In this document: in pieces, positions 11,576 through 44,500 of the stretch | Layout: the number at the start of each line of letters is the position of its first letter | Position numbering within the stretch: the first letter of the stretch is position 1 | Assembly (NCBI GenBank): GCA_945874895.1 | Contig: CAMCIC010000001.1 | Location: 186,001 to 250,000, forward strand | Length of the DNA stretch: 64,000 bases | From: Akkermansia muciniphila | GTDB lineage: Bacteria; Verrucomicrobiota; Verrucomicrobiia; Verrucomicrobiales; Akkermansiaceae | Direction: 5' to 3' | Notes under the pieces: generated by a model | Told to the model about the DNA's origin: nothing | Databases searched by the model: none | Seen by the model: the letters and a program-made list of their open reading frames with translations, nothing else | Program-made: the position numbers and the translations under genes

Positions 11576-11887
11576 AGCTCAGAAAAAATGCCGCCCAAAG
11601 GCGATTTGAAGTGATTCCTCATTTCTGCCGCTTGGGTTCATCTTTGGGGTCATCCAAAGATTTTCGCGCGATGAAACATGTGGGTCCGTCATTGTTTTAG
11701 TAGGGATTGTCGTGTGATGCTCGTTTTTCCCCATTTGACACGGCTCAGCAAGAAAAGAATTTTTAATTTTTGCGCGCGACCTATGTGAGGCAGCGATTCG
11801 AGCACAAATGAAGCATCGAGCGGAAATTTGTCTGAAAAATGCACGGTGCTTGACTTGTATTGTGGAATCAGCCATTTCCACTTGAAA
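11576..11887. other. Divergent intergenic region between kdsD and uxaC
   Basis: This 312-bp stretch has no convincing gene. It must hold the promoters for both divergent genes. A TTGACA hexamer near 11736 on the plus strand is a possible -35 box, but no convincing -10 box stands at the right distance. No riboswitch or strong hairpin was recognised. Confidence 0.4.
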
Positions 11888-13285
11888 ATGAACTACTTGC
11901 ACAACGACTTTTTTCTCCATAGCGCGACAGCGCAGCGACTGTATCATGAAGTGGCGGAGCACGCCCCCATCTACGACTACCACTGTCACCTTTCACCGGC
12001 CGAGATCGCCACGAATCACCGCTGGAATAACATCACAGAACTTTGGTTAGGAGGAGACCACTACAAATGGCGCTTGTTGAGAGCCAATGGTGTGGCGGAA
12101 AAATTCATCACCGGCGATGCCTCGCCACGGGAGAAATTCCAGGCGTGGGCAGAAACCGTTCCGTTCACGTTGCGCAATCCCATGCACCATTGGGTTCACA
12201 TGGAGCTGCGTCGATACTTCGGCATCGAAGAACTCCTCACGCCCGACACCGCCGAGTCGATTTGGACACGCTGCAACGCCGCATTGGCCGAGGCTGATTT
12301 CTGTGTGCACGGCTTACTGAAAAAATTCCGCGTGGAAATGGTTGGCACCACCGATGACCCGGCAGATTCCCTCGATCATCATCACACCATCCGCGAGTCA
12401 TCCCTGACCACCAAAGTTTTGCCGACCTTTCGCCCTGACAAAGCATTTGCCATCGACCAAGGATCAGCCTACGCGGCATGGATCGAAAAACTTGCCGCAA
12501 CCTGCGGAAAAACGATTTCCTCACTCGACGATCTGTGTGCAGCTCTGCGCCAACGCCACGATGACTTTCACGCTGCAGGAGCTAGGATGTCAGACCATGG
12601 TCTGGACCACTGCCCGGCGGTCGATTGCGATGAAGCCACGGCGGCATCGATTTTCCAAAAAGCCATAACTGGGGGCAGTGTCACGCTGATGGAGAAAGAG
12701 CAATTTACGCACCATTTGATGGTGCTATTCGGCGAGCTCGACGCAGAAAAAGGTTGGACCAAACAACTTCACCTCGGTCCGTTCCGAAATGTCAATTCGC
12801 GCATGGCACGGCAGCTCGGACCCGATAGCGGTTTTGACACGATCGGCGACAGCCCGCAAGGTCACGGACTGGTGCACTACCTCGATACACTCGCTTCACG
12901 CGACAAACTTCCTGGCGTGATTCTTTACAATATCAATCCTCGCGACAACTACCTTTTCTCTGCTCTTACCGGTGCGTTTCAGGATGGAACCCGCGCCGGA
13001 AAAATCCAGTTCGGCTCGGGCTGGTGGTTTCTTGATCAAAAGGACGGCATGGAACTTCAATTGAATGCTCTATGCTCCACTGGGCTGCTTTCCCGCTTCG
13101 TCGGCATGCTAACGGACTCCCGCAGCTTCCTCTCTTTTCCACGGCACGAGTATTTCCGCCGCATCCTCTGTGAAATGATCGGCAGCGAGGCCGAGCGGGG
13201 CGAATTGCCCGATGACTTCGGAGTGCTATCGAAACTGATCGCGGACGTCTGCTCGGAAAATGCCAGAAACATGTTAGATCTCTGA
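11888..13285 (+). CDS. uxaC: Glucuronate isomerase (uronate isomerase)
   Basis: A 465-residue amidohydrolase-superfamily enzyme that isomerises D-glucuronate to D-fructuronate and D-galacturonate to D-tagaturonate. The start at 11888 is chosen because MNYLHNDFFLHSATAQRLYH matches the family N-terminus. Metal and substrate blocks are visible: IYDYHCHLSP (HxH), VGTTDDPADSLDHH, FRPDKA, LHLGPFRNVN and GWWFLDQKDGM. Length is normal. It points to use of uronic acids, for example from glycosaminoglycans or pectin. A CAP-domain gene follows 5 bp later. Confidence 0.96.
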   Translation: MNYLHNDFFLHSATAQRLYHEVAEHAPIYDYHCHLSPAEIATNHRWNNITELWLGGDHYKWRLLRANGVAEKFITGDASPREKFQAWAETVPFTLRNPMHHWVHMELRRYFGIEELLTPDTAESIWTRCNAALAEADFCVHGLLKKFRVEMVGTTDDPADSLDHHHTIRESSLTTKVLPTFRPDKAFAIDQGSAYAAWIEKLAATCGKTISSLDDLCAALRQRHDDFHAAGARMSDHGLDHCPAVDCDEATAASIFQKAITGGSVTLMEKEQFTHHLMVLFGELDAEKGWTKQLHLGPFRNVNSRMARQLGPDSGFDTIGDSPQGHGLVHYLDTLASRDKLPGVILYNINPRDNYLFSALTGAFQDGTRAGKIQFGSGWWFLDQKDGMELQLNALCSTGLLSRFVGMLTDSRSFLSFPRHEYFRRILCEMIGSEAERGELPDDFGVLSKLIADVCSENARNMLDL

Positions 13286-13290
13286 GCCCT

Positions 13291-14310
13291 ATGTCGGCCG
13301 TGACGAAACCCCTGCTTGTCCTTCTGCTCTCCTCAACTTTGCTCCTAGCCGCCCCACCGGCATCGGATGAATTGCTCGCAGGCTTGCAAACCTGCATGGG
13401 AAATGGCACTCGGGTCGATCCTTTGCTCGAGCACCTGAAGGAAATGCCTTCACCAGAGCGGAAAAAACTCTCGGCAGCGCTCGAACGAGCCTGGCCGCAG
13501 ATTCGCTCGCAATACCTATCCAGTTTGGAAAAAGCGGCAAAAACCATAAGCTCGGGAGCGCAAAAAAGCAAAAGTCAGGCGCGCATTCGCGAATTGCGAG
13601 CTCAGTTTCTGGAGGTTTACGGAATGGGAGAAGACACCATGAAACCCCTGCTGAATAGCAAAAGCATGCCCGCAGTCGAAGAATTGCAAGCCCTCATGCT
13701 TCCCTCCACAGATTCCGTTATCCAGGCCGGTGGCGACGCACTCGCCAAGTTGCATCACAAGGCGAACGTCTTAGCGACTTTTCGTGATGCCGCGCTCAAA
13801 GCCGACATCACCACCATTCCTGCTGATTCCATGACAACGCTGCTAGAAGCAGAGAAAAAGACAGTCGGTGACATCTCGCGGATCGATCGAGACGCCCAAC
13901 GCATCCTCGCGATGAATGCCAAGATTGCCGCTAAGGAAAAAATCCCTGCGGAAGAAACCAAAGGCATCGAAGAATGCAACCTCTGGCGTTTGTTGGTAGG
14001 ATTGAAGGCTTGTGTCATCGACCCTAAGCTATGCGATACCGCGCGCGATCACTCCAAAGACATGGCCGAGCAGGGATTTTTTGCACACGAAAGTCCCGTC
14101 GCAGGAAAAAAAACACCGTGGGATCGCGCAAAGAACTTCGGAACCAGTGCCGCGGGAGAGAACATTTTCGCGGGATCCCCGTCAGCCCACGAGGCCAATC
14201 GCGGTTGGTTCTATTCGCCGGGTCACCACAAAAACATGTTCCATCCCGGACAAGTGCGCATCGGACTCGGCCAGCACGGCCAGCACTGGACGCAGATGTT
14301 CGGTCACTGA
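13291..14310 (+). CDS. Secreted CAP/SCP-domain protein
   Basis: A 339-residue secreted protein with a signal peptide (residues 1-20). Residues 20-225 are helical and charged with no family recognised. The C-terminal 110 residues form a CAP (SCP/PR-1) domain: CDTARDHSKDMAEQGFFAH, ESPVAGKKTPWDRA, AGENIFAG, and GWFYSPGHHKNMFHP with the conserved His pair. Bacterial CAP proteins bind lipids or act at the envelope; the activity is unknown. It starts 5 bp after uxaC and is probably co-transcribed, although the functional link is not obvious. Confidence 0.85.
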   Translation: MSAVTKPLLVLLLSSTLLLAAPPASDELLAGLQTCMGNGTRVDPLLEHLKEMPSPERKKLSAALERAWPQIRSQYLSSLEKAAKTISSGAQKSKSQARIRELRAQFLEVYGMGEDTMKPLLNSKSMPAVEELQALMLPSTDSVIQAGGDALAKLHHKANVLATFRDAALKADITTIPADSMTTLLEAEKKTVGDISRIDRDAQRILAMNAKIAAKEKIPAEETKGIEECNLWRLLVGLKACVIDPKLCDTARDHSKDMAEQGFFAHESPVAGKKTPWDRAKNFGTSAAGENIFAGSPSAHEANRGWFYSPGHHKNMFHPGQVRIGLGQHGQHWTQMFGH

Positions 14311-14478: not shown

Positions 14479-14507
14479 TTGACACCCAAAGCGCCGACAC
14501 GCATAGT
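14479..14507 (+). promoter_or_regulatory. Sigma-70-like promoter of the TPR-Exb operon
   Basis: TTGACA at 14479-14484 is a perfect -35 box. After a 17-bp spacer, CATAGT at 14502-14507 matches four of six -10 bases. The first gene starts at 14534. An inverted repeat, GCGCCG at 14491 and CGGCGC at 14509-14514 with inner CAC/GTG, spans the -10 box and could be an operator. Confidence 0.7.
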
Positions 14508-14533
14508 GCGGCGCAAGCAAAAAACCTATTGCT

Positions 14534-17365
14534 ATGAACATTTTCCGATACGGGCACATCTCTTTCTTACTATTCACATCGTTTCTTACCTCCGCGAATG
14601 CACAGGTGGATTTGAATGTAGCCATGAGCGAGGGCCTCAAATCGTATTCTGCCAAGGATTATGCCAAAGCGATTGAGAATTTCACCAAAATCACCAACTC
14701 AGTCAAAGAAAAATCACCCGAATCGGTGGTCTACTGCCTTGCTTTTTCTTACTACAACCAACTGATGTATGAGGATGCGAGCAAAATGTTCTCCATGCAT
14801 GCTGCGAGCTACCCGACTCACAAAAACGCCTCCGAGGTCCAGTTGTTCTTGGGGCGCAGCCTGCTCACTCTCGAGGGTCGTGAGTCCGATGCCTTGAAGG
14901 CACTCGGCCTCGCCGCAAAGGATCCGAATTACATCGAAGAGGCTCGCCTGTATGCTGCTGAAGCATACATCAAGAAAAACGACACCGAAAAGGCGGCCAA
15001 TGTGCTCAAAATGGCCATCGCTGACAAACTTTCCGGAGTGGGATTGATCCGCGCCTGCCTTCAACTAGCAGACCTCTACATCGAAAAAGACGAGCTCGAC
15101 AAAGCCGCCGAGCAGCTCAAAATGGTTCAGTCCACTCCCAACTACCCTGACGTGATCGTCGCGGTCAATCATCGCTTTGTGCAGATTGGCGATAAGCACT
15201 TGGATGGGAAAAAATACAACAGCGCGCTCTCGGTTTACTCATCCGTCAAGCCTCACGCCCAGGTGGTCGCCACCCAAGAGGACCGTCTGCAAACACTCGA
15301 AAAAAACATCGTGTTGTTGAGCAGGAGACTTGAAGAAGACCGCAAGGCGAACAGAAACGTGCTGCGCACGCAAGAAGACCAACTCGCCATCATGAAAGCA
15401 ACGGCGGAGCAGTTGACCAAAATTTTGGCAGAGGTCAAAGCGCTGAAGGAATACGATGCCGTTCTGAGATATCGCATCTCACGATGCTACTTCAACATGG
15501 AGCGCTACTGGATTGCCACCTCAGCCTTTGAATCCATCTACAAAGACTACCCTACATTTGACGATGCTTCCACATCGCTCTTCGGAGCCGTCATTTGTCA
15601 CACAAAGCTGAACTTGGTGGATGGCACTCTCAAGCTCTGCTCCGTGTATCTTGAAAAATACAAAGACGGCAAATATGTCGATCAGATTGCAGAAATCAAA
15701 GCATCGACATTGATCAACCAGAACCGAGCCAAGGAAACCATTGAATTCATCACGAAATTCCTCGATACAAATCCCAAAACGACAAACAAAGAGAAATTTT
15801 TCTTTCTGCTGACGAACACGCGTTTCTCGAATTCCCAGTATGACGAGGCTGCTGCAGGATACGACACACTGATCAAAGACTACCCCCAATCCCTCAACAA
15901 AGAAGACTATGTCTACCGTAGGGCTCTTTGCAGCTTTTTGAGAAATCAATACGAAGAGACCCTGGATGGTTTCAACAACTACGAAAAAAGCTACCCATCG
16001 GGTCTTTACAATACGGACATCCAGTATCGTCGCGGTATCATCTTGCTCGCACAGGCAGCTCAAGAAAAAGATCCTAAAAAACAAGCGGACACCTACGAAA
16101 ATCTCTACAAAACGATGGATCGTTTGCTGCAGAATCAGAATACGATCGATTTCCGCGGACAGATTTACACCTTGATCGCCGATGCAAAAAATGCCCAAGG
16201 CGACAACGGCGCGGCGGCCACGAACTACGCACTAGCCGTTAAGTTTGCCAACGGCGACCAAAATGTGATTCAGTATGCACTTGAAGAGGCCACAAACTCC
16301 CTCAAGGGCAATCGTCGGTGGACTGAGTTGCGCGAGTTGTGGGAACTGTTTTTGCAGAAAAATCCTGGCCATGCGATGGAGCTGAGAGGCGTCAGTGAGC
16401 TTTGCAAGCTATACATCCGAGAGCAACAGGAAGCCAAAGCGAAAGAGACCTTGCTGACCTATGTCATGAAGGACATTCACAATCCCCGCTCGGAATATGT
16501 GGAAATGCTTTTGAGCCAATTCGCATCGCTCTACGTTCCAAAACGCAAAGTAAAAGTCGCAAATGCAGCCACCCAACCGGCACCTCTTCCTCCTGAAAAA
16601 GTCATCGCCGAGATCATGTCGGCGTTGCAACTGCCCGAAGAGAATCACAGCATGACCTACTTGGCACGCCTGCAGTTTGTGAAAGCAGAATATGCCCGGA
16701 TGGTCCGAGATGACCGGATGTATAAGTCTGCACTCAACATCATCGGCACCACCTACTCTCCCGAATCTCTGAGCCCCACAGTGCTTGCTCTGGTGGGTAA
16801 CCAATTGTTTGAGGAAAAGAGATACGATGAGGCCAAAAAGTTTTACAGCCGCCTGCGCACTTCCTACCCTGATTCTTACTACGGCGAAGCTGGACCTATC
16901 GGAATCGGTCTCATTGAACTGCAAATGCGTAACTTCCAAGACGCACTGGACGCCTTCAACGAATCTCTCAGCAAGCCCACCAGTGGAATGATCAAGGAGG
17001 CCACCTTCGGCAAAGGCCGCGCGCTCATGGGTCTTGGGAAGATCCAAGAAGCTGCAGAGCTCTTCAAAGAAGTCATTGCCACCAAAGAATGGAGAGGTGC
17101 TGAGAAAGCCGGCGCGATCTACTACATGGGCGAAATCTCCGCGAAGCAAGGAGATTCCGGAACGGCACATGGCTATTTTCAACGAGTGTATCTCAGCCAC
17201 GCAGCCTATCCCGAATATGCCGCTAAGTCCTACTTGCGTGCTGTCGACATGCTGCGCAATGGTCTCAAACACGATGAAGCGAGAGCCACTTTGCAGGAAT
17301 TGATCAACCATCCCAAACTCAAAGACACCCCCGAAGCGAAAGAGGCGGCCAAGTCTATGAGATAA
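14534..17365 (+). CDS. Large secreted TPR protein of the Exb operon
   Basis: A 943-residue protein with a signal peptide ending near ANA (residues 22-24). Nearly the whole mature length is tetratricopeptide repeats, for example YAKAIENFTKITNS, YDEAAAGYDTLIKDYPQS and YDEAKKFYSRLRTSYPDS. A charged coiled-coil-like stretch is near residues 250-300. TPR solenoids of this sort act in the periplasm as scaffolds, like YbgF or BamD at smaller scale. It is the first gene of the operon with ExbB and ExbD homologues, so a role in linking an energised inner-membrane complex to the wall or outer membrane is inferred. Confidence 0.88.
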   Translation: MNIFRYGHISFLLFTSFLTSANAQVDLNVAMSEGLKSYSAKDYAKAIENFTKITNSVKEKSPESVVYCLAFSYYNQLMYEDASKMFSMHAASYPTHKNASEVQLFLGRSLLTLEGRESDALKALGLAAKDPNYIEEARLYAAEAYIKKNDTEKAANVLKMAIADKLSGVGLIRACLQLADLYIEKDELDKAAEQLKMVQSTPNYPDVIVAVNHRFVQIGDKHLDGKKYNSALSVYSSVKPHAQVVATQEDRLQTLEKNIVLLSRRLEEDRKANRNVLRTQEDQLAIMKATAEQLTKILAEVKALKEYDAVLRYRISRCYFNMERYWIATSAFESIYKDYPTFDDASTSLFGAVICHTKLNLVDGTLKLCSVYLEKYKDGKYVDQIAEIKASTLINQNRAKETIEFITKFLDTNPKTTNKEKFFFLLTNTRFSNSQYDEAAAGYDTLIKDYPQSLNKEDYVYRRALCSFLRNQYEETLDGFNNYEKSYPSGLYNTDIQYRRGIILLAQAAQEKDPKKQADTYENLYKTMDRLLQNQNTIDFRGQIYTLIADAKNAQGDNGAAATNYALAVKFANGDQNVIQYALEEATNSLKGNRRWTELRELWELFLQKNPGHAMELRGVSELCKLYIREQQEAKAKETLLTYVMKDIHNPRSEYVEMLLSQFASLYVPKRKVKVANAATQPAPLPPEKVIAEIMSALQLPEENHSMTYLARLQFVKAEYARMVRDDRMYKSALNIIGTTYSPESLSPTVLALVGNQLFEEKRYDEAKKFYSRLRTSYPDSYYGEAGPIGIGLIELQMRNFQDALDAFNESLSKPTSGMIKEATFGKGRALMGLGKIQEAAELFKEVIATKEWRGAEKAGAIYYMGEISAKQGDSGTAHGYFQRVYLSHAAYPEYAAKSYLRAVDMLRNGLKHDEARATLQELINHPKLKDTPEAKEAAKSMR

Positions 17366-17394
17366 GCTTTTCATCCCTATTCCCGATCTTTTTT

Positions 17395-18210
17395 ATGCGC
17401 ACCCTGTTATACGCCTCAGTTTACTTTGTTTTCTGTGCGATTTCGAACGGACAACAGTATCAATTGAAAAACGGACGACGTTTCGCTTTGAGCGAAGTCA
17501 AGATCGTCGACAAGAAGTTCGTCGCTTCCATTGTCACTCCTACCGGACTTCAAGAATATAACTTCACTTCCGCCGATATTTCCTCGGTGACCTTTCCTTA
17601 CTCAGAGCCTTTTGCAGAGGCTCAGAAATTATTCGTTCAGGAAAAATACAAGGACGCTTTGGACCAGCTTGAGCAGGTTTTCCAATCTCAAAAAGCTTAC
17701 ATCATGCTACCTGGTTCCTTGTGGTCCCAAGCCTTGATGCTACAGCTCGATATCATGGCAAAGACTGGCAAGAATGCGGACGACGCGAAGCAGATGAAGG
17801 ATGTCAACCTCATGGACCCTTCCGACATCGAAGCCGTAAATGAATTGGCGGATATTTTGAAAACACGGGAGATTTCCAAACTTCAAGAGACCGTCAAAAC
17901 CTCCGAAAACGTTCAAGTCCAGTCCCGCTCGCTGCTTCGCTGCGGCGACCTGCTCAAGGCCGAAGGCAAAATCGAAGAGGCTGCTAAGACTTACATGCTC
18001 GTTACCGCGTTTTTCTCCACTGAGCCGATGCTTTCTTTGCGAGCCACGGTCGCCGCTGCCGAATGCGTGTATCAAATGCAACGCAGAGAGGACGCCGTCA
18101 AACTCCTATCGGACTACATGATTGACAACCCCAACACGCCCTATAAAGACATATTTGAAACGAAAATAAAAATGTTCAAAACCACTGAAAAACCAAAAGT
18201 TGAAAAATGA
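17395..18210 (+). CDS. Secreted helical-repeat (TPR-like) protein
   Basis: A 271-residue protein with a signal peptide (MRTLLYASVYFVFCAISNG). The first 60 mature residues are beta-rich (YQLKNGRRFALSEVKIVDKK), followed by helical repeats: AQKLFVQEKYKDALDQLEQV, LLRCGDLLKAEGKIEEAAKT and AAECVYQMQRREDAVKLLSD. Two degenerate TPR pairs are likely. Its end overlaps the earliest possible start of the ExbB gene by four bases, which supports coupled translation. Probably a periplasmic partner of the larger TPR protein. Confidence 0.82.
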   Translation: MRTLLYASVYFVFCAISNGQQYQLKNGRRFALSEVKIVDKKFVASIVTPTGLQEYNFTSADISSVTFPYSEPFAEAQKLFVQEKYKDALDQLEQVFQSQKAYIMLPGSLWSQALMLQLDIMAKTGKNADDAKQMKDVNLMDPSDIEAVNELADILKTREISKLQETVKTSENVQVQSRSLLRCGDLLKAEGKIEEAAKTYMLVTAFFSTEPMLSLRATVAAAECVYQMQRREDAVKLLSDYMIDNPNTPYKDIFETKIKMFKTTEKPKVEK

Positions 18211-18257
18211 AAGACCAGACCCTTAATTACACTTCGAAAACCAACAACCCTACAATC

Positions 18258-19118
18258 ATGCAACGTTCCATCAAGAATTTCACCAAACGTATCAGATCCA
18301 TTTCCTTCATGATTTTCGCTGTTGCTTTTATGGCGATGTCATGCCCCGTGGTAGTAGCTGCTGAAGAGTCCGCGCCTGCCGCAACAGAAGAAGCTGCGAG
18401 CAAAGCGCCCAAGAAAAAAACACTTTTCGCCACCATCGCTCAAGGTGGATGGGTGATGTGGCCCATCGGTTTGTGCTCCGTGTTTACCATTTACCTGGTG
18501 GTCGACATGTATCTCAGACTGTCTCAGAAAAAATTGTGCCCTGAAGCAGAAGTGGAAAAGGCTAAGCAAATGTTTATGGCTGGGGACTACGTCAACTGCG
18601 TGCAAGCACTCAAGACCGTCAATTGCGCATTCAACAACTGCGTTCGCTACGGACTGAGTTTCGTAGGCAAGGGCAAGGAGCAGACGGAATCCGCTTTGCT
18701 GGCTGAAGTGGACCGTGAGAGCAACCGCCTCCAGAACCGAATCAATTACCTGTCCGTTATCGGTGTTTGTACTCCCATGATCGGATTGTTGGGCACAGTG
18801 GTGGGTATGATGGGTGCCTTCGATTCGCTCGGTTCCGGCGGTGCTGCTGGCGGTGGCGACGATACATCCGCGCTCTCCCACCACATCGGTGAGGTTTTGG
18901 TGGCAACGGCATCCGGTTTGTTCATCGCGATTCCAGCGTTCATGTTCTTCTACATGCTGCGCAACCGTCTTGCAGCTCAAATGCACGAGCTGGAAGATCA
19001 AGTCACATCTCTGTTCCGGAACATGCCTTATGAATACTTCCACGGTCTTGAAATCGGAGAAGATGTAACATATGCGGCGCTTCCGAATTGGTTAGAGCAG
19101 GCTCCTGCCAACGCTTGA
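18258..19118 (+). CDS. MotA/TolQ/ExbB proton channel protein
   Basis: A 286-residue inner-membrane protein of the ExbB/TolQ family. The start at 18258 gives a basic N-terminus and signal-like segment (RSISFMIFAVAFMAMS); an alternative ATG at 18207 overlaps the previous stop (ATGA) and adds 17 residues. Three membrane segments follow: WVMWPIGLCSVFTIYLVV, YLSVIGVCTPMIGLLGTVVG and VLVATASGLFIAIPAFMFFY. The block LLGTVVGMMGAF and the GEVLVATASGLFIAIPA segment are the family hallmarks. An N-terminal secretory segment before TM1 is an extra compared with E. coli ExbB. It would form the pentameric stator that uses proton flow with ExbD. Confidence 0.93.
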   Translation: MQRSIKNFTKRIRSISFMIFAVAFMAMSCPVVVAAEESAPAATEEAASKAPKKKTLFATIAQGGWVMWPIGLCSVFTIYLVVDMYLRLSQKKLCPEAEVEKAKQMFMAGDYVNCVQALKTVNCAFNNCVRYGLSFVGKGKEQTESALLAEVDRESNRLQNRINYLSVIGVCTPMIGLLGTVVGMMGAFDSLGSGGAAGGGDDTSALSHHIGEVLVATASGLFIAIPAFMFFYMLRNRLAAQMHELEDQVTSLFRNMPYEYFHGLEIGEDVTYAALPNWLEQAPANA

Positions 19119-19145
19119 CCTTCCGAAAACCAACTTTTTTGAATT

Positions 19146-19583
19146 ATGGCTGGCAGTGTAGGTGGAGATGGAAGCGATCCGGAGTTTCAGGTCGCTCCCA
19201 TGATTGATGTTTTGTTGGTGTTGCTCATATTTTTCATGAGCATCACCACCGATCAGATACTGAAGGTTGACAAGTCGATTTCTCTACCTCTGGCGCCTAA
19301 CGCCAAGGTGCGGAAGGTCGATTTGCAAAACCAGGCCGTGGTCAACATTGACTGGAATGCCAGCCAAAACAAAGCCGTCGTGCGATTCGGTCAACAGCTA
19401 TGCGATCCTATTGAAAAACTCTCGGAGTTCGTGAAACCCATGAAGGATGCCAACCCAAAACTGCAGATGATCATCCGCAGCGATGGCGACACTCCCTCGG
19501 TAGAAGTTCAAAAAGTGATCGAACAGGTTGCCATCGGTGGTGTGGACAACATTTCGTTGTCGGGTGTAAATCGTAAGAAATGA
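19146..19583 (+). CDS. ExbD/TolR biopolymer transport protein (first copy)
   Basis: A 145-residue protein with one N-terminal membrane helix and a periplasmic ExbD/TolR domain. The essential membrane aspartate is Asp21 in VAPMIDVLLVLLIFFMS. The periplasmic part ends with the family pattern LQMIIRSDGDTPSVEVQKVI. It lies 27 bp after the ExbB gene and 7 bp before a second ExbD. Two different ExbD copies beside one ExbB suggest a hetero-dimeric ExbD rod. Confidence 0.93.
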   Translation: MAGSVGGDGSDPEFQVAPMIDVLLVLLIFFMSITTDQILKVDKSISLPLAPNAKVRKVDLQNQAVVNIDWNASQNKAVVRFGQQLCDPIEKLSEFVKPMKDANPKLQMIIRSDGDTPSVEVQKVIEQVAIGGVDNISLSGVNRKK

Positions 19584-19590
19584 AACGGTA

Positions 19591-20040
19591 ATGAGCAGAA
19601 ACAAGGTTCGTAGAAGATCTTCTGAAATTCATATTGGATTCCAAATCGCTCCGATGATCGACGTGGTCTTCGTGATTATGTTGTTCTTCATGGTGATGGC
19701 GGGCAAAGTTCAGAAAGAGCAGGAATTGAATCTCAAACTCCCTGGCTCGATGCCCCCAGAGGCTCCCGTAGATGTCATCGAAGAAACGCAAATCAGCGTG
19801 ATGGAAACAGGAGAAATTCTCCTCAACGATGAAATGTTGGCCGAGCCAGCAGATGCCAAGTTGGCACAACTGACGGCGACACTGATCCGTCTCAAAGCTT
19901 CCTCGGATGCTGCCAAAAGCAAAATTGTCTGCACCATCATCGCAAGTGAATATTCCCAGTTCCAGCGTGTGGTGGATGTCTTGAATGCGCTTTCCGTGGC
20001 GCAAATTGAAAACGTTACTTTTGAAGTACCTGTTCAGTGA
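19591..20040 (+). CDS. ExbD/TolR biopolymer transport protein (second copy)
   Basis: A 149-residue ExbD/TolR protein distinct from the preceding copy. The membrane aspartate is Asp24 in IAPMIDVVFVIMLFFMV. The N-terminus is basic (KVRRRSS), giving the inside orientation, and the C-terminal domain contains IVCTIIASEYSQFQRVVDVL. The two copies share mainly the membrane segment, so they are likely old paralogues with separate roles in the rod dimer. Confidence 0.93.
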   Translation: MSRNKVRRRSSEIHIGFQIAPMIDVVFVIMLFFMVMAGKVQKEQELNLKLPGSMPPEAPVDVIEETQISVMETGEILLNDEMLAEPADAKLAQLTATLIRLKASSDAAKSKIVCTIIASEYSQFQRVVDVLNALSVAQIENVTFEVPVQ

Positions 20041-20071
20041 TCCCTAAACTTCCTAACCATCTCCGACACCC

Positions 20072-21736
20072 ATGAATCCCAATGACCCCATTCCAGAAAA
20101 TGTTATCGTAACAGGCGATGTCCTACCCCCAAAGAAGAAGAGGGGTCTTGCCTATTTGCTGGCTCAAATGGGCCTGAGTTCCTTTTTGGTTTCCGTCATC
20201 GTGCACATCGTTTTTGTGCTGCTCGCTATCTTCATTTTCTACAGGATTGTAGAACCACCCAAAGAGAAACCTGTTGATTTCTTACCCGGCGGCGGCGGCG
20301 GTGGCGGATCAGGTGGCGAAACGGCACACAAAATCAAGAGCACGATGCGTCGTTCGGTTTCTACGGCGGTCTCGAACAAGAAAATTCTCTCTTCAAGTGC
20401 GAATGCCAGCTTCTCTCTTCCCGAAACCTCGGACATGATGGATTCGGCTTTGCCTATGGATGTCACAGCCGGTGCAGGCTCCGGTGGCGGTGCAGGCGGC
20501 GGTAGGGGAACAGGAACGGGCACCGGTGCTGGAAGCGGCACGGGACCCGGAAAAGGATTTGGTGATGGTCAGCTCGGTTTGGGAGCGCTTATCCCTACCT
20601 TGATGAAAGGACGCTGCTCAGATAGCGAGAGAAGCATCATGTTGAGAGACGCGGGCGGCCCTCCCGAAATTGAAGCAGCTGTGAAAAAATCCCTTGCGTG
20701 GCTCAAGAAAACACAAAAGTCAAACGGCTCATGGGGAGCAAACCGTGAGGTTGCGATGACAGGACTTGCCTTGCTCTGCTACTTGGGTCACTGCGAAAGT
20801 ACCCAATCTCCCGAATACGGTGAAAATGTATCAAAGGGCATTACCTTTTTGATCAATAACTCGCTCAAGAATCAAGGGAAATTGGCCACCAGTCTGGCTG
20901 ATAAGCACTGGGTTTACGAACATGCCATTGCTACCTATGCCCTGGCTGAGGCCTTTACCTTCTCGAAAAACCTCCAGTTTCCCATTCCTGAACTAGAAAA
21001 CGCTGTCGTCAAGGGAGCCATGGAAATCATCGGAGGACAGAATCAAAACGGATCATGGGACTACGGATACGATATCGAATCCAAGCGCAATGACCTTTCG
21101 GTGGCAGGTTGGCAGCTACAAGCACTCAAGGCCGCAAAAGCCACAGGTCTGAAATTCGAGGGTTTTGATAGCTGCATTCGCCGCGCGGTGGATTGTATCC
21201 AAGACAAAACTTCCGAAAAAGGCTGCTACGTGAATGACGGTGGCTTCGCCTATGCAGGCAGTGGCAGCGTCAAGCCGCCGATGACATCTGTCGCAGTGTT
21301 GTGTTTGCAGCACTGGAACAAGGAAACATCCAAGCCTGCCAAAGAAGGGGTCAAGTTCATGATGGACGGACTCGAAGACCGAGGCAAAAACGGCAGAGAA
21401 AAGTTCGCGGGCAAACCTAGAGGGGAATATGCTTTCAAGTATGATGGCGATGATGATCGATGCAATTTGTATTCCTTCTATTACGCGAGCCAGTGCATGC
21501 GTAACGCGGGAGGAAGCGAGTGGAAGGAAATGAACAAAGCCATTATCGAAGAGATTTTGCCTGCGCAAAATTCGGATGGTTCTTTCAAAAGCAATAATAC
21601 GCCACTCAGCAATTACCCTTGCAAATCGACTTATCTCCATTGCCTGAACACCTTGATTCTCGAGGTCTACTATCGATTCCTCCCCGCTACCAGTTCGGGC
21701 TCAGGTCGATCATCCGCTTTTGATGATCTCAGGTAA
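20072..21736 (+). CDS. Membrane-anchored alpha/alpha-toroid protein in TonB position
   Basis: A 554-residue protein in the place where TonB or TolA would be expected. Residues 35-60 form one membrane anchor (FLVSVIVHIVFVLLAIFIFY) after a short basic cytoplasmic tail. Glycine-rich linkers follow at about 72-81 and 132-170. From about residue 195 to 535 lies a prenyltransferase/squalene-cyclase-type helical toroid with QW-like repeats: KKTQKSNGSWG, GGQNQNGSWDYGYD and LPAQNSDGSFKSNN. No DxDD cyclase motif is evident, so a binding rather than catalytic role is likely. There is no TonB C-terminal domain. Last gene of the operon, followed by a strong terminator. Confidence 0.87.
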   Translation: MNPNDPIPENVIVTGDVLPPKKKRGLAYLLAQMGLSSFLVSVIVHIVFVLLAIFIFYRIVEPPKEKPVDFLPGGGGGGGSGGETAHKIKSTMRRSVSTAVSNKKILSSSANASFSLPETSDMMDSALPMDVTAGAGSGGGAGGGRGTGTGTGAGSGTGPGKGFGDGQLGLGALIPTLMKGRCSDSERSIMLRDAGGPPEIEAAVKKSLAWLKKTQKSNGSWGANREVAMTGLALLCYLGHCESTQSPEYGENVSKGITFLINNSLKNQGKLATSLADKHWVYEHAIATYALAEAFTFSKNLQFPIPELENAVVKGAMEIIGGQNQNGSWDYGYDIESKRNDLSVAGWQLQALKAAKATGLKFEGFDSCIRRAVDCIQDKTSEKGCYVNDGGFAYAGSGSVKPPMTSVAVLCLQHWNKETSKPAKEGVKFMMDGLEDRGKNGREKFAGKPRGEYAFKYDGDDDRCNLYSFYYASQCMRNAGGSEWKEMNKAIIEEILPAQNSDGSFKSNNTPLSNYPCKSTYLHCLNTLILEVYYRFLPATSSGSGRSSAFDDLR

Positions 21737-21769
21737 GATTCGTTAGCTCCATTGTCATTCCATAAGACA

Positions 21770-21808
21770 AAAGCCGGCATCCGTCATTCGGACGCCGGCT
21801 TTCCTTTT
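21770..21808 (+). terminator. Rho-independent terminator of the Exb operon
   Basis: AAAGCCGGC-A-TCCG and CGGA-C-GCCGGCTTT form a long stem around a short loop, followed by TTCCTTTT. It lies 34 bp after the stop of the toroid gene and closes the plus-strand operon. Confidence 0.85.
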
Positions 21809-21909
21809 GATTTGTCATGCAGGCGACTATTGCCCCTATAGAGTATTGCTTGTCCTGAGATTGAGAAGGACAGGATCGAGTCGAGGAAAGAACTCTGTAA
21901 GACAGGGGT

Positions 21910-22413
21910 TTATTTCTCGACGTTGCGCAGGGCGGCTTTCAACTGCTGTTTGAATTCACTGTTGCTCGGGGCACCATGCCAAAGCAACTTGCCATTGACT
22001 CCGTAGATGGCCACATGCGGAATGTCATTGTGCTCGAGGCCTATGCTCCCCCCTTGCATAACGGGATACGTCACGCGCGCGTTTTTGAGAATTTTGAGTA
22101 TCGCATCCTTGGGGCTATTTTGCGCTTCCAATCCCACAACGATCAGACCTTTCTTTTCTCCCGATTGGGACAGCTTTTGCATTTCTGGCAGACTGGCAAG
22201 GCATGGCGGGCAATTGACGCCCCAAGACTCCACAACCAGCACTTTTCCCGTCAGGGCTTTCGCATCAAACGGAGCATCGTTGACCTGCGGACCAAACTGG
22301 ACCTTATCAACACTCACATCCGGCATTGAGATTGCTACTTTTTCCTTCGCATGGAGCAAAAACGGTAGAATGGCGAGGGAGGCGAACCATGGGTAGACTT
22401 TAGATAGTTTCAT
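21910..22413 (-). CDS. TlpA-like periplasmic thioredoxin
   Basis: A 167-residue secreted protein with a signal peptide (MKLSKVYPWFASLAILPFLL). The redoxin motif is C-P-P-C in ESWGVNCPPCLASLPEMQKL, and the cis-Pro loop IPHVAIYGVNGKLLWHG is present. TlpA/ResA-type proteins reduce disulfides outside the cytoplasm, for example in cytochrome c maturation. No cytochrome maturation gene is adjacent, so the partner is unknown. It is convergent with the Exb operon. Confidence 0.9.
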   Translation of the reverse strand: MKLSKVYPWFASLAILPFLLHAKEKVAISMPDVSVDKVQFGPQVNDAPFDAKALTGKVLVVESWGVNCPPCLASLPEMQKLSQSGEKKGLIVVGLEAQNSPKDAILKILKNARVTYPVMQGGSIGLEHNDIPHVAIYGVNGKLLWHGAPSNSEFKQQLKAALRNVEK

Positions 22414-28304: not shown

Positions 28305-29762
28305 CTAGCTGCTGGGAAGGATTTTTTCACGCAGCACATCGGTCACCATTTTGGGGTTCGGTTTGCTGGGCGCGGCTTTCATGACCTGACCGGTGAGGAA
28401 ATTGAGAATTCGGTCATTGCCAGCTTGAATCTCTGCAACCTTATCGGGAAACTGTGCTATGATTTGATCACAGATTTCATGCAAGGCTCCGGTATCAGTG
28501 GGCTTGTAGCCCATTTCATCGGCGATGGTAGCGGCAGATTTTGCGGGATCTTCCAACATCTCAACCAAGACTTCCCGCGCTTGATTCGCAGCTAGGGTCC
28601 CATTCTCAACGAGCGCCAGAAGTCCGCGCATGCGCTCCGGAGTGACGGCGCAATCTTGAATGGCGATATCGCGCTCATTGATGGTTCCCAACAGATTGTT
28701 GATGAGGAAATTCGCCGTTTTTTTCGCGGGAATCGCATCATCAAGGGTGGCCTCAAAGTAAAGTGCCAAGTGCAGATCGGACGATAGTACATTCGCATCG
28801 TAAAGCGTAAGAGAAAAATCGTTTTGGTAGCGAGCGGCACGCGCGTGCGGAAGCTCAGGCACGACCTGCTTCATCCGATCTACTAGATCCGTAGTAGCGA
28901 GAGGAAGCAAATCAGGACACGGGAAGTAGCGGTAATCGTGAGCATCCTCTTTGGTGCGCATCATCTGCGTTTCGCCGCGGTCATCATCCCAGCGACGGGT
29001 CGATTGGATTTGAGGAATGCCTGCATTGAGCTCTTCGGTCTGGCGATCAATCTCAAAGAGGATCGCACGACGCACGGCGGAGGTGGAGTTGAGATTTTTC
29101 AACTCGATCTTGGCACCAAGAGGGTCAGTGGCATGGCGACGCAAGGAAATGTTCACATCACAGCGCATCTGACCTTTTTCCATGTCGGCATCGGATACGC
29201 CCCCCTGCACCAGAATCATCTGCAGGCTGCGCAGATAGGCGAAGGCTTCCTCGGCAGATTCGAGATCAGGCTCGCTTACAATCTCCATCAGGGGAGTGCC
29301 GGCGCGGTTAAAATCGATGAGGGAGGCGTTGCCCAAGTGAGTGGATTTTGCGACGTCCTCCTCCAGGTGAATGCGATTGAGACGGATCACTTGGTTCGGG
29401 CGCTTGATCGATTTTTGTGCATCGGAGGGGTAGCAGTGATCGTAGAGTGGAACAGCGCCACCGATGCAGAGCGGCAGGTCCATCTGGGTGGTCTGGTAAT
29501 TTTTCGGCATGTCCGGATAGAAATAATTCTTCCGGTCCCACTTCGAGATGGGCGGTGTGGAGCAACCGAGCAACATGCCCGTGAGGATGGTTTTTTCAAT
29601 CGCTACCTGATTCAGCACAGGCAAGGCCCCAGGGAGCCCGAGACATGTGGGGCAGATGTTGACGTTCGGTTCGTCGCCAAACGAAGTGGCACAGGCACAA
29701 AACATTTTCGTGCGGGTATTGACTTGGCAATGAACTTCGAGGCCTATGGTGACGAGATACAT
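28305..29762 (-). CDS. gatB: Aspartyl/glutamyl-tRNA amidotransferase subunit B
   Basis: A 485-residue protein, part of the GatCAB complex that converts Glu-tRNA(Gln) and Asp-tRNA(Asn) to the amidated forms. The start at 29762 (MYLVTIGLEVHCQVNTRTKM) matches the family; the frame stays open upstream but that stretch has no homology. Blocks seen: FCACATSFG, CPTCLGLPGALPVLN, KWDRKNYFYPDMPKNYQTTQ, HLEEDVAKSTH and the C-terminal YqeY-like domain ending in KPNPKMVTDVLREKI. gatA and gatC are not adjacent. Divergent from the large fusion gene, with only 109 bp between starts. Confidence 0.97.
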   Translation of the reverse strand: MYLVTIGLEVHCQVNTRTKMFCACATSFGDEPNVNICPTCLGLPGALPVLNQVAIEKTILTGMLLGCSTPPISKWDRKNYFYPDMPKNYQTTQMDLPLCIGGAVPLYDHCYPSDAQKSIKRPNQVIRLNRIHLEEDVAKSTHLGNASLIDFNRAGTPLMEIVSEPDLESAEEAFAYLRSLQMILVQGGVSDADMEKGQMRCDVNISLRRHATDPLGAKIELKNLNSTSAVRRAILFEIDRQTEELNAGIPQIQSTRRWDDDRGETQMMRTKEDAHDYRYFPCPDLLPLATTDLVDRMKQVVPELPHARAARYQNDFSLTLYDANVLSSDLHLALYFEATLDDAIPAKKTANFLINNLLGTINERDIAIQDCAVTPERMRGLLALVENGTLAANQAREVLVEMLEDPAKSAATIADEMGYKPTDTGALHEICDQIIAQFPDKVAEIQAGNDRILNFLTGQVMKAAPSKPNPKMVTDVLREKILPSS

Positions 29763-29871
29763 AGTGAAATCTGCTGAGAGCAGCGAAAAACTGCCTTGTT
29801 TGACCACGAAAGTAAAGCATGGGATTTCGTTGAAATATTGCACGGCGCATTCCGTAAAGGTAGTTTTGCTT

Positions 29872-32800
29872 ATGAATCCACCACGTTCTCGATGGCTCGG
29901 CCTGTTCGCTTCTTGCATCGCCTCGCTTTCTGTCTCTTATGCCGCAGAACCCCTCGTTGCGCTCAAACCCCATGACCACGTCGCCATCGTAGGGAGCGGA
30001 CTCGCCGACCGCCAACAGCATCATGCGTGGTTTGAAGCCATGATCCATGCCGCACATCCCGATGCCCAGCTCACCGTGCGCAATCTCGGCTTCGCCGCCG
30101 ATGAAATCACCGTGCAACGTCGATCCGATGACGTGCCCACCACCGATTGGTTTCTCGGCATGAAAAAAGGCGACACCACCAAGCCGGGCAACGCTGGCGT
30201 TGTTTACAAAGCCGGCACGGAGTTCGGCGCCGATGTAATTTTCGCCTACTGGGGCTTCAATGAATCCTTCAAAGGGCCCGATGGAGTGGAAGCTTTCAAA
30301 CGTGATCTCGATGCCTATCTCGGCAAGCTTCTCGCAGCCAAGTACAATGGCGAAAGCGCGCCGCGTGTGGTATTGTTTTCTCCCATTGCCCACGAGAATC
30401 TCAAAAGCCCGCACTTTTCCGATGGTTCGGAAAACAATAGGAATCTTTCTTTATACACCGAGGCCATGGCGGCAGTAGCCAAGGCGAAAAACGTGCCCTT
30501 CGTCGATCTCTTCCGCCCCTCACAGGAACTCTATCAACAAACCGATTCCCCGCTGACCATCAACGGCATTCATTTGAACGAGAATGGCGACAAAGCCCTC
30601 GCCGCCTTGCAGTATCAAGCCGTTTTCGGTAAGAAACCACCTGCGACAAAAGGCCAACAACTCGAAAAAATCCGCGCCGCGGTCATCGAAAAAAACACCG
30701 AGTGGCATCATCGTTACCGCACCGTAGACCAATACAACATTTTCGGTGGACGCTCACGCATCGCGTATGAGGGCGTCACGAACGCGAAAATTCTCGGCGA
30801 AGAACTCGCGCAACGCGATGTAAAAACCGCCAACCGCGACCAACTGGTCTGGGCCACGGCGCAGGGGAAATCCTACTCTGTCAAAGACGACAATCTTCCT
30901 CCCGTCAATCTCACTCCTCCAAACCGCAAGGAGGCCGTGCCCTACATGGATCCGCAGGAAGCGATTCAACATCTGAAACTCGCACCCGGTTGCAAGATCG
31001 AGCTCGTCGCTTGCGAAAAAACCTTTCCCGATCTGATCAATCCGGTGCAGATGAACTTCGACACCAAGGGCCGGCTGTGGATCGCCGCATGGCCGAATTA
31101 TCCTGAAACCACACCCACGACCAAGGTTTTCGATAAACTGTTGGTCTTCGATCTTGATCCCAAAACCGGCAAGGCGATCAAGTCCACCGTGTTTGCCGAT
31201 GGCCTCAATTGCCCGACCGGATTCCAGTTTTATAAAGACGGTGTGCTCGTGATGCAGTCGCCCGATTTGTGGTTCCTGCGTGATACCAATGGCGATGGCA
31301 AGGCCGATACGAAAGAGCGCATGCTCCACGGCCTCGATGCCGCGGACTCGCACCACGAAACGAACTCGATGTGCCTCGAACCTGGCGGCGCCGTCTACCT
31401 CAGCGATGGCGTGTTCCACCGCACCAATGTGGAGACCTACCTTGGCCCCGTACGCAATACCGATGGTGCCATCTACCGCTACGAGCCGAACACCGGAAAA
31501 TTCATGCGCCACGTGCCCTACGGCTTCGCCAATCCACACGGTCGTGTGTTCGACTATTGGGGCAATGACCTCATCACCGATGCCACCGGAAATTCGAACT
31601 ACTTCGGTCCTGCGTTCAGTGGTCATCTCGACAGCGGCAGCCACCCTGGCATGAACCAGTTCTGGAATCGCCCGTCGCGCCCCTGCCCCGGCACCGCGAT
31701 TCTTTCCAGTCGCCATTTCCCCGATGACTGGCAAGGCCTTTTCCTCAATACCAACGTCATCAGCATCCAGGGGATTTTCCGCGCGAAAATCACCGAGGAA
31801 GGCTCTGGCCTCAAAGGCGAAACACTGGAACATCTGGTCACGACCGACATCGCGAAGAACCCGAACTTCCGCCCCTCCGGCATCACCGTCGCGCCCGATG
31901 GCTCGCTGTATTTCATGGACTGGTCGCAAATGCTCATAGGCCACCTCCAGCACCACCTGCGCGACCCGAATCGGGACCACAATCATGGTCGACTCTATCG
32001 CATCACCTACGAAGGGCGGCCCTTGTTAGAGCCAAAAAAAATCGACGGTCAGCCCATCCCGGCACTGTTAGAGTTGCTCAAAGAACCCGAAAACGACGTG
32101 CGCCTGCGCGCGAAGATCGAACTCGGCAAACACGATGGCAAAAAAGTCACTGACTCCGTCATGAAGTGGATCAAGATACTCGATGCCAAGGACCCCGCAT
32201 TCGAGCACCACATGCTCGAGGCGCTGTGGGTGCATCAGTGGCACGATATCGTCAACGAGGCCCTGCTCACCCGCATGCTGAAATCCTCCGAGCCCCGCGC
32301 CCGCGCCCAGGCCGTGCGCGTCATGGGCTACTGGCGCGATCGTTTGCCCGACTCCGTGAAATGGCTGAAAACCGCCGCCGAGGACGAACATCCCCGCGTG
32401 CGTCTCGAAGCCGTGCGCGTCGCCAGTTTCTATCGCGAAACCGCCGCTGCTGATGCCGCGCTCACCGCACTCAAGCGTCCGATGGATTACTACATCGAGT
32501 ATTGCTTTAAACAAACCATGCGCCAGCTTCAGCCCTGGTGGAAAAACGCCGTGGCCGAGGGCAAAGAAATCGCTGTCGATAATCCCGCTGGCGTCTCCTA
32601 TTTGTTAGATTCCGTACGCAGCGCCGATCTCGGGAAATTGCCGAAATCCCCCGTGGTCTTCACCGCCATGCTCACGCGTCCAGACGTCGCTGCCGATCAA
32701 CGTCAGACCGCTCTTACGGAACTTTCCGCGCTGAGAAAAATCACACCCGCCCAGACCTTGCTCGGCGTGCTGGAACCCATCGCCGGAGAATCGCATGCCG

Positions 32801-41587: not shown

Positions 41588-44500
41588 TCACGGTCCCGTA
41601 ACACGAAGGCGAGCGAATCGTTTGCTAGTCATGGGCTTGGGAAAGGTGTAGCGCACATGGTGACCGGTGAGGGTCACATGGATTCCAAGAGTTTCCTGCT
41701 CCCATGGTCCTGCAAGAGATGTGGCGGTTTCAACCACAAAGTCGGAGGCGTAGGAGCCAGGATAGTTCGCGGATTTGATCCAAGTGATGCTGAAAGTGCC
41801 TGCGTCATGGACGATGCTGGGAAGGACTGTCGAACCACTGGTGTTGGATGGACCGCCGAGGAAAAACTCGATGCCGTTGGAAACGCCATCGTTATCGCTG
41901 TCCTGACTGAAACCTGCCGACGTGCCATTGGCAGATTGCCACATGGCGAAAGAGTTGGCGGGGATGCCGACAAGATACCCGCTGCTGTTGAGTGAAAAAC
42001 GAGCGATGCCGGGCGAGGTGATCTGGGAAAGTTGAGCGGATGTAAGGCCGTTCGCCGATGTGCCGAAACGCAGCGAGCTACCAGAAACAAAGGTGCCCGT
42101 GAGGGCGAGGCTTCCACCTATCCAGCTAACGGCACTGCTATCCGCAAAGGCAAGTGCTGCTCCGGTAGCAAGGCTGATCGTTGCAGCAGCAGTAGGGTCA
42201 AGCGTGCCGGTCGTGTCGGTTCGGTTCGCCACATCAAGCGTGGCCGCCCCGATGGATACAGGTGTGTTCGGTAAGACGTTGTTTGCGCCCAATGCCAGCG
42301 TGCCGGCACTGATGACAGTTGAGCCAGCATACGTACAAGCGCCGGCTAACGTCAAAGTGCCAGCACCGGATTTCTGCAGACCACCCGTGCTGTTGCCGCC
42401 GAAATTAAGCAAAGGATCAGAAAAGGTAAAAGAAGATCCATTGGTGTCGATCTTCGCACCACCATCTTTGACCTGCAAGGCGAGCCCGGAAAAAGCTGGC
42501 AAATTTGCGGCAGCAATGAATTGACCTCCATTGAAATGGAGCTGCTTGGTAAGTCCACTGGTGACGGTGATGTTGGAGACCGTCAACGTGCCTCCATCGA
42601 GGTTAACAATGGCATGGGTCTTGGCTCCAGAATTGCCTGCATGGAAACGTAGGGTATGAATGAGCGCCGATCCACTGCTCATGGTCAAAGTGCCGCTGGC
42701 CTGACCATTGCCCAGACTCAGAGTCCCTGTGTTGGCCGTATTGACGTAGGCTCCACCATCGATGATGAATGTGCCATCACCCACGCCAACCGCTGCCCCG
42801 AGCACATCGCTATTGACGGAACCGCCACTGGAAGTGAAAGAGCCGCCACTCAGAGTCAAGGTGCCCGCGCCGTTGTTTCCCACTAGTAGACCACGCTGAA
42901 AGCTATCCGCGCCGCCAGATCGAATCTCACCGGCAGTGATTTGATTCCCACTGCCCAAAATGCTCAGACGAGTGATCGTGAGAACGCCACTGGAAGAGAT
43001 GGTCGTTCCTCCGGTGGTGCTCAGTCCTGTGGAACTGCTGGTGGTAACAAAGCCGCTAGAACCTGTGCCGTTGATCGATTGATTGGCAGCGAGGGTAAAG
43101 CCCGCCGTGCTCTGCAGTGCAGCGGTGTTTCCGATGGAGATAAGCGGAGAACTAGCGATAAGATTCGAACTGACGAGCAAAGTCCCAGCGGAAATGGTCG
43201 TGTTACCTGTGTAGGTGTTAGCCGCGGATAGCTTCCACACGCCACTGCCGCTCTTGGTAAGGCTGATTCTGTTCGCGGGCGAGGTGGCGCCATTGAGAGA
43301 ATTGTCCCCGATCACACCTTGAACCTCATTGGGTGTGATGCTAGTGCCGAAATTGCCCCCGAGCACGAGTGCGCGAGCAGCACTGCCGGCCGTAATGCCT
43401 ACGGGCGTATTCAGGACACCAGCAGTGAAAACAAGTGGACCAGTTCCGTTATTGGCAAGGGTGGCGGTGACGGCTGCGGATGTAGTAGGACCAATCTGAA
43501 TCGTGCGATTCGTGGTATCGCCCGCACCCGTATAGTTGAGAGTGCTGGAATTTGTGGTCGCTAGAGTGATGCCGCCTGATGCAGGAGCTCCGAGGGAACA
43601 CGGTGCGCCGTAATTTCTCAGCGTATTGATTTGCAGCGTGGATTGTTTCACATTCGTGATGCCCGAATATGTATTGAGACCGTTGAGAATCAATGTGCCT
43701 GAGCCTTGTTTGTTGATACCAAAAGCTCCACTCACAACTCCACCGATGGTGAGATTGCCCGCGACGATGTCTTGCGTGGCATTGGCAGTGAGAGCAACGG
43801 AGCCGCTGCCTGCATCCAACCCATTGCCGCCATGGCGGAAATTTCCTGCCCAGATCATGGGAATGTTCGGCAAAAGAATGGCCGCTCCGCTATCGTTTCG
43901 CAGTTGCGGATTGCTCGCGCTTCCCAACGTCAACGTTCCTGATCCCACGGCATTCGCATGGTTGAGGGTCATTGTACCGTTGATAAGCGAAGTGCCCCCA
44001 GTGAAGGTGCTGGAGGCATTGAGAACAAGGGTGCCTGCACCGGTTTTGGAGAGCCCCGCTGTGCCGGCGAGCGAGCAATCCATGGTGACTGTATTGTTGA
44101 CCACTTCGATGGTCGGCTCGTCCCCCGCCAGTGTGAGCACGTTGCCCGAAATGATCCGCCAAGTTTGCGCGCCACTGGTATCGCCGAATTTCCATACGCC
44201 ACCCGTTCGGTTCGCCGCAAGATTGAGTGACGTATCCGCAGCGAGATCGACGGTGCTAAAATCCAGCGTGTCGCCATAAGATGACAAGGGCACAGTCGCG
44301 TTGCTCCAATTCGAAGCTGTGCTCCATGATTGTGACCCGCCCGCAGTTTGAGTCCAGATGCCCATCGGCAAGCTCTCGGCAAGAAATTCCACCGCGGCTG
44401 TGCAAATGCTGAAACTCGTTCCCGTGCTTGTGGCAAAAGTGGGTGTGATGCTGCTGGGTGTGGACACAAACTGCCGTCCCGAGGAAAAACCGCCCCACTG

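Follow-up and report, generated by a model that had tools for sequence, protein, structure and literature searches.

A stretch of 64,000 nucleotides from Akkermansia muciniphila (assembly GCA_945874895.1, contig CAMCIC010000001.1, positions 186,001 to 250,000 of the forward strand; hereafter the window) contains six co-directional open reading frames (ORFs) at window positions 14534-21736 (+) in the order TPR1-TPR2-ExbB-ExbD-ExbD-toroid, i.e. two proteins with tetratricopeptide repeats (TPR), the subunits of an ExbB/ExbD motor and a membrane-anchored protein with an alpha/alpha-toroid head. We propose, with a probability of about 0.7, that this operon encodes a cell-envelope machine that generates force from proton flow, with the toroid protein as the transducer driven by the motor. 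We refer to the five genes other than the toroid gene as the chassis, and L and G numbers denote loci and genomes. The operon comprises the following features:

14479-14507 (+): promoter-like hexamers TTGACA-17-CATAGT, 10 of 12 letters in a consensus scan; weak
14534-17365 (+): TPR1, large periplasmic TPR protein, 943 residues; many Pfam TPR models
17395-18210 (+): TPR2, periplasmic, N-terminal segment followed by TPR-like repeats, 271 residues; Pfam, NF052542
18207-19118 (+): ExbB/TolQ, 303 residues; PF01618 (MotA_ExbB) 94 bits; tree
19146-19583 (+): first ExbD/TolR, 145 residues, transmembrane Asp retained; PF02472 63.7 bits; tree
19591-20040 (+): second ExbD/TolR, 149 residues, transmembrane Asp retained; PF02472 57.0 bits; tree
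20072-21736 (+): transducer (toroid protein), 554 residues; SQHop_cyclase_C 29.7 bits, cut-off 26.1
21765-21815 (+): terminator hairpin with T-rich tail; RNA folding

The last protein has a TonB-like layout and a toroid head

The transducer was modelled with AlphaFold2 from an alignment of 36 relatives. The model has a transmembrane (TM) helix at residues 36-59, a glycine-rich linker at about 101-175 that is predicted to be disordered, and a toroid at 176-540, mostly with a predicted local distance difference test (pLDDT) score >90. The TM helix reads SVIVHIVFVLL and contains S41-x3-H45 (SVIVH), a spacing of Ser41 and His45 that we take to equal that of TonB. At E<=0.1, no match to TonB_C or to the C-terminal Pfam domain of TolA was obtained for this protein. 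As modelled, it is TonB-like in layout, with a TM helix containing Ser/His, a linker and a C-terminal head.

In fold comparisons of the toroid model by VIA-align, the best match was squalene-hopene cyclase 2sqc (Z 25.4, 289 residues, 3.2 Å), followed by a polysaccharide hydrolase (Z 24.2), cellobiose 2-epimerase (Z 24.1) and GH76 (Z 22.4). A preliminary description of the window had predicted a squalene-cyclase-like toroid after a glycine-rich linker, and the model agrees with it. Its suggestion that the toroid grips an isoprenoid found no support, because sugar enzymes match the fold almost as well as the cyclase and the fold does not separate sugar from isoprenoid ligands. The DxDD motif of squalene-hopene cyclase is absent from 34 of the 36 relatives and is not conserved; the DGDDD of the window lies partly in alignment columns absent from most relatives, and the match in the other protein falls in a linker. 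Across the 36 relatives, 53 toroid residues are invariant. With every second helix in order taken as an inner helix, invariant positions make up 25 of 95 in the inner helices versus 7 of 98 in the outer helices (p = 4e-4), a bias that points to a conserved pocket in the inner ring of the predicted toroid.

Anchored toroids linked to the motor carry the transmembrane histidine

The fetched loci contain 133 toroid genes, of which 122 remained after removal of duplicates and 113 encode a detectable TM helix. Toroids were scored as linked if a TPR1-type gene, an ExbB and an ExbD lay on the same strand at a distance of <=9.5 kilobases (kb). The TM His is present in 44 of 44 motor-linked TM toroids, and 0 of 35 His-less TM toroids are linked to the motor, both counts being inflated by relatedness among the loci. 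Moreover, the five toroids beside a partial gene set are all His-bearing; 25 His-less toroids with >=6 kb of upstream sequence have no set, and 16 toroids (6 His-bearing, 10 His-less) have too little upstream sequence to judge. We conclude that, among anchored toroids, motor linkage is accompanied by the TM His without exception.

For this survey, the surroundings of orphan toroids were judged by the ORF list, and the toroids of L044 and L045, which lie 3-5 kb from a non-chassis ExbB, were scored as unlinked. One of the 44 (L160) adjoins only the second ExbB-ExbD-TPR set described below, on a contig that begins just before the toroid gene, and one of the 35 (L049:9664) looks secreted rather than anchored. 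Nine toroids without a detectable TM helix were dropped; four of them lie near a chassis, i.e. L041 (helix lost by the cut, His present by eye), fragments in L155 and L160, and L038:2349-3557. Tandem membrane-anchored toroids occur away from the chassis in L042, L045, L049 and L053; their TM helix lacks the His and they keep identical invariant toroid residues.

Among 57 genomes of relatives, with at most 14 candidates scored per genome in one scan, the N-terminal, SxxxH-type transducer profile A3 matched in 19, the chassis TPR1 (E<=1e-50) in 24 and both in 18 (Fisher p = 7e-9). The sole A3 genome without a chassis, G038, is a fragmented assembly with a weak match. The TM His counts and the genome co-occurrence reject a chance linkage of toroid and motor; together with the operon linkage, they bear out the earlier claim that the toroid replaces a TonB or TolA domain and is tied to the stator.

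Heads are exchanged on a conserved chassis

We collected 73 operons with TPR1, ExbB and two ExbDs. A toroid is present in 42 of them, vWA in 19, PA14 in 8 and no head in 9, with overlaps (toroid alone 38, toroid and PA14 4, vWA 18, PA14 3, PA14 and vWA 1, none 9); because the operons were collected through searches for toroids, TPR1 and Mul1B, the counts do not reflect frequencies in nature. The set represents 73 of 110 TPR1-labelled ORFs. The other 37 include L129 and L130, which scored under the limit; L118, L123, L125, L126 and L127:15179, for which fewer than two ExbDs were detected; L131, L132 and L134, with no motor gene found in the vicinity; duplicates; and the TPRs of the second ExbB-ExbD-TPR set. 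Heads were assigned by profiles built in this analysis together with weak Pfam matches: Pfam PA14 exceeded its 24-bit cut-off in three of five proteins tried (24.5, 30.4 and 24.5 bits), one scored 19.4 and that of L109 gave no match, and Pfam vWA stayed under its cut-off in 3 of 3 proteins tried.

The preliminary description had named two outcomes that would count against it, i.e. absence of the arrangement from relatives and a catalytically intact toroid with no tie to the stator. The arrangement proved to be widespread among relatives, and the toroid has no conserved DxDD, so that neither outcome applies. With a toroid in 42 of the 73 sampled operons, a one-off oddity is rejected. Chassis headed by toroid, vWA or PA14 are spread across the phylum, and the TPR1 profile A1 (E<=1e-20) matched in at least 91 of 288 genomes of the phylum, a lower bound since two candidates were scored per genome.

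The N-terminal half of the transducer is common to the toroid, vWA and PA14 proteins of sister operons, and [AST]xxxH occurs in 21 of 23 vWA and 10 of 10 PA14 proteins; one of the two vWA misses (L115) is not judgeable, its match beginning near the ORF start. On a tree of ExbB and both ExbDs, the head label requires 13 changes (minimum 5, shuffled mean 31.6), and the starred branches force at least five changes for toroid and at least three for vWA. These changes on the motor tree indicate that heads have been exchanged repeatedly on one conserved chassis.

Regardless of operon type, first ExbDs and second ExbDs fall into two deeply separated groups (FastTree; three rows labelled first by distance are second by gene order), in agreement with the earlier assignment of two different ExbD/TolR proteins. 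Both retain the TM Asp in all 73 operons (four of 146 by eye). Such a deep split would be expected if the two unlike proteins always worked as a pair, and an ancient pair of unlike, Asp-keeping ExbDs fits a heterodimer.

Some loci depart from the standard gene set: L051 and L140 have three ExbDs each, L051 and L038 have two transducer toroids each, and L108 has vWA and PA14 heads side by side. The genome of the window also contains a second ExbB-ExbD-large-TPR set (L064:5969-9730). This set adjoins the toroid operon in 14 fetched loci, e.g. L040:11461-15155 (L040 and L178 belong to one genome), and a close counterpart of its ExbB is encoded at L246 in the Akkermansia-type genome G167 (1e-58). 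G167 also encodes a GH20 identical to PDB 7cbn over 521 residues, which points to A. muciniphila MucT.

The motor is related to that of Mul1

MUL1 and MUL2 mediate mucin transport and processing (PMC13174399). According to PMC12418764, mucin products accumulate inside cells and this requires MUL genes, e.g. for pili and periplasmic complexes; moreover, a figure legend in one paper marks enzymes as Mul1A-associated.

The Mul1B model NF052542 matches TPR2 with E 2.4e-5 and 23.7 bits, far under the cut-off of 75, and TPR2 is its only match in the genome of the window. At E<=0.01, it matches 7 of 14 TPR2 relatives; 10 of 27 sub-cut-off matches adjoin a TPR1 match and 17 do not, as counted from two lists. 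In profile-profile comparison, TPR2 aligns with Mul1B over 245 columns from the N terminus (98.8%, E 1e-16). Because TPR2 also aligns with TPR1 in the control (188 columns, 96.9%, E 1.9e-10), the TPR repeats contribute part of this score. By these profiles, TPR2 appears to be a distant relative of Mul1B.

Nine of the 12 Mul1B loci taken are ordered ExbB-ExbD-ExbD-TPR1-TPR2, and no motor gene was found near the Mul1B genes of L131, L132 and L134. As read from the loci, Mul1 shares with the window operon an ExbB, two ExbDs, a large TPR protein and a Mul1B-like gene; it differs in that the motor genes precede the TPR genes, no transducer gene is seen in cis, and TPR2 of the window scores far under the Mul1B cut-off. 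In an ExbB tree of 46 rows, 34 chassis rows including Mul1 split from 12 other ExbBs (six from the genome of the window, three from G167 and three from relatives) with support 96/91. The Mul1 ExbB sits within this group, which also holds that of the window, beside L075 (support 98/97); the branches are long and call for caution, and a position of Mul1 outside the chassis group is barely rejected by the approximately unbiased test (p-AU 0.048). The change between TPR-first gene order, as in the window, and motor-first order maps to a single event on the tree. In the operon L075:489-8151, the genes are ordered as in Mul1, with ExbD2 and TPR1 flanking a toroid gene; this operon is a possible link between the two arrangements.

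Motor proteins were also compared by BLAST between the fetched loci. The window ExbB matched first the L246 ExbB of G167 (9e-19), which has its own counterpart in L064, and then the Mul1 ExbB (9e-13); L246 likewise ranked first for the first window ExbD. In the reverse direction, the Mul1 ExbB is closest to the window ExbB (6e-18, next 1e-8) and Mul1 ExbD2 to the second window ExbD, and Mul1 ExbD1 is closest to the L064 ExbD. Homology between TPR1 and Mul1A was weak by plain BLAST (best E 0.003), so that the kinship with Mul1 rests on ExbB, the gene set and TPR2. No relic of a transducer was found in the gap of about 1.1 kb between ExbD2 and Mul1A in two Akkermansia loci.

A 2026 paper reports in its main text that aquatic Akkermansiaceae lack MUL1 synteny and regards MUL1 therefore as a mucin-specific gut adaptation (PMC13174399). 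In three family members outside the Akkermansia-like genus (L133, L135 and L136), we observed an ExbB-ExbD-ExbD-TPR-TPR locus of the Mul1 type. By taxonomy, not habitat, these three loci speak against a locus bound purely to Akkermansia.

Relation to known systems

A vWA force-transducer operon of Planctomycetes-Verrucomicrobia-Chlamydiae bacteria has been published (PMC12204202, Mol Biol Evol 2025). It shares with the window operon a TPR gene, a tolQ-like gene, two unlike tolR-like genes and a single-TM transducer with Ser/His; the window operon differs in having a toroid head instead of vWA and a second TPR gene. We equated our vWA operons with these via the described gene set, and the motor trees interleave them with operons of the window type. 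The main text of PMC12204202 does not mention toroid, squalene, cyclase, PA14, Akkermansia or mucin.

TonB-ExbB-ExbD and TolA-TolQ-TolR have the stator subunits, the TM Ser/His, the linker and a C-terminal head in common with the window operon, which in contrast has no TonB_C match, a toroid head, two unlike ExbDs and two TPR proteins. The genome of the window encodes two ordinary TonB_C proteins, each adjoining another ExbB; the toroid operon is therefore an additional system. Squalene-hopene cyclase and other alpha/alpha toroids share the fold of the toroid; unlike the cyclase, the window toroid has no conserved DxDD, and the folds of sugar epimerase and GH76 follow closely behind.

Among the papers listed in open-licence literature, we found neither a toroid or PA14 head on ExbB/ExbD motors nor the Mul1 link. 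The vWA form is already described in PMC12204202, and the toroid and PA14 heads and the Mul1 link appear new within that literature. The distinct energised machine that had been suggested is supported as regards a stator-linked toroid protein; it is not a one-off, since a vWA chassis is published and Mul1 is kin.

Proposed mechanism

In the mechanism that we propose, ExbB and the unlike ExbD pair would form an ion-driven stator, to which the last protein, like TonB and TolA, would attach through its Ser- and His-bearing TM helix. Ions passing through this stator would drive the docked helix, and the glycine-rich linker, spanning the periplasm, would pass the force to the toroid, which may hold a ligand, partner or cargo through the conserved residues of its inner ring. 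TPR1 and TPR2 would act as a periplasmic scaffold. The likely job would be to pull on an outer-membrane partner or a large glycan during uptake. Glycan uptake is preferred because of the kinship with Mul1 and the PA14 heads, and we consider it plausible at somewhat below even odds.

Several points weigh against this motor-driven transducer or its proposed job. First, the transducer matches the TonB spacing of the SHLS motif for its Ser and His, not for the Leu and Ser that follow. Second, no chassis adjoins 23 His-bearing toroids for which >=6 kb of upstream sequence is available, and L038:2349-3557, immediately 5' of a toroid operon, encodes a secreted toroid that lacks a TM anchor. Third, A3 does not match in six of the 24 chassis genomes (G035, G039, G042, G047, G049, G052), four of which (G039, G042, G047, G049) carry His-bearing toroids of a different linker type. 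Profile A3 is also without a match in the three Akkermansia-type genomes G167, G237 and G279; therefore, either Mul1 operates with no transducer of this kind or its transducer is dissimilar. Fourth, the flanking genes of toroid operons back no substrate: in the 87 of 113 listed flank ORFs that were scanned, the best 25 of 118 families are mixed and include no common partner pointing to a substrate, the commonest being arginine decarboxylase (5 of 87 ORFs), with three 3-keto-disaccharide hydrolases and two GH20. Finally, all of the support comes from sequence comparison and a predicted model of the single toroid protein.

The genome of the window also holds a stand-alone toroid similar to L038:2349-3557, at L070:7122-8315.

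Alternative explanations

The operon could instead encode an envelope-maintenance machine analogous to Tol-Pal, in which the toroid and TPR proteins would keep the outer membrane or peptidoglycan in place, or shift it, as cells divide, and would play no part in uptake. TPR1 scores over the YbgF cut-off (111.8 versus 90.1 bits) and just under that of BamD (81.1 versus 81.4 bits), and the operon lies among mixed genes, as would a general-purpose system. However, the distribution is patchy, 8 of 10 listed genomes of the window genus (that of the window being among the 10) having neither chassis nor A3 among the best <=14 candidates scored; heads are swapped between operons; and the system is related to Mul1, MUL genes being reported in PMC12418764 as needed for accumulation of mucin products. 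Altogether, we regard such a machine as unlikely.

Alternatively, the toroid could be a periplasmic enzyme tethered to the membrane, of the type of sugar epimerases, glycosidases or isoprenoid cyclases, whose gene just happens to lie in one operon with the stator genes. The conserved inner-ring residues, the enzymes among the best fold matches and the retention of the same invariant residues by His-less orphan toroids off the chassis are in line with this idea. By contrast, the TM His tracks the motor, the same N-terminal half bears vWA or PA14 heads in sister operons, and 34 of 36 relatives lack the DxDD, both remaining matches lying outside the conserved toroid columns. A tethered enzyme is therefore quite unlikely.

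A PorLM- or Agl-like machine for protein export or gliding, with TPR1 as a PorW/SprE-like part, is improbable, since the PorW/SprE matches (TPR1 65.5 bits, cut-off 250; TPR2 26.5 bits) are far under the curated cut-off and the TPR profiles cross-match freely, even if gliding is suggested for the vWA form in PMC12204202.

Operon borders and other genes in the window

The distances between the six genes are, in order, 29, -4, 27, 7 and 31 bases; with gaps of <=31 bases, the self-contained Exb/Tol-type operon was correctly placed in the preliminary description. The terminator, also proposed there, was found by folding and not picked up by the consensus scanner; its hairpin has -22.7 kcal/mol (z -4.66) and was equalled by 0 of 200 shuffles. 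For the proposed promoter, the hexamers match as listed, but such sites are not above shuffles (5 found versus 6.7 +- 2.4) and so are no evidence alone. Of the two secreted TPR proteins claimed, TPR1 is well matched; the TPR matches of TPR2 are weak and under the Pfam cut-off (best 21.3 bits versus 25), and the signal peptides of both were assessed by eye.

Upstream, the gene for a CAP-domain protein ends at 14310, 223 bases before the operon, and the downstream neighbour (21910-22413) is convergent to it. uxaC and the CAP-domain gene (window 11828-14310), which lie 5' of the operon, also adjoin Mul1A-Mul1B genes in the same-genus genome G007 (L131:4017-6461); the orientation differs from that in the window, and the two perhaps represent a single ancestral site. 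Elsewhere, the window encodes a 1515-residue protein with DUF7133, HEAT, galactose-binding and copper-binding domains (29746-34293, +) and a 1792-residue M66-type peptidase with passenger-associated repeats (41588-46966, -).

Implications

To our knowledge, the uptake of large polysaccharides by Verrucomicrobiota is largely an open question. Tentatively, and with the odds rather against it, one ancient proton-powered TPR1-TPR2-ExbB-ExbD-ExbD chassis may serve the Verrucomicrobiota as a polymer importer, its interchangeable toroid, vWA and PA14 heads reeling large glycans or their outer-membrane ports inwards in a TonB-like but separate form of selfish uptake, with Mul1 as a member that has no transducer in cis. 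If so, Mul1 would exemplify a general type of envelope machine whose heads can be swapped, which could be tested directly at the TM His, at the Asp of the ExbDs and at the inner ring of the toroid.

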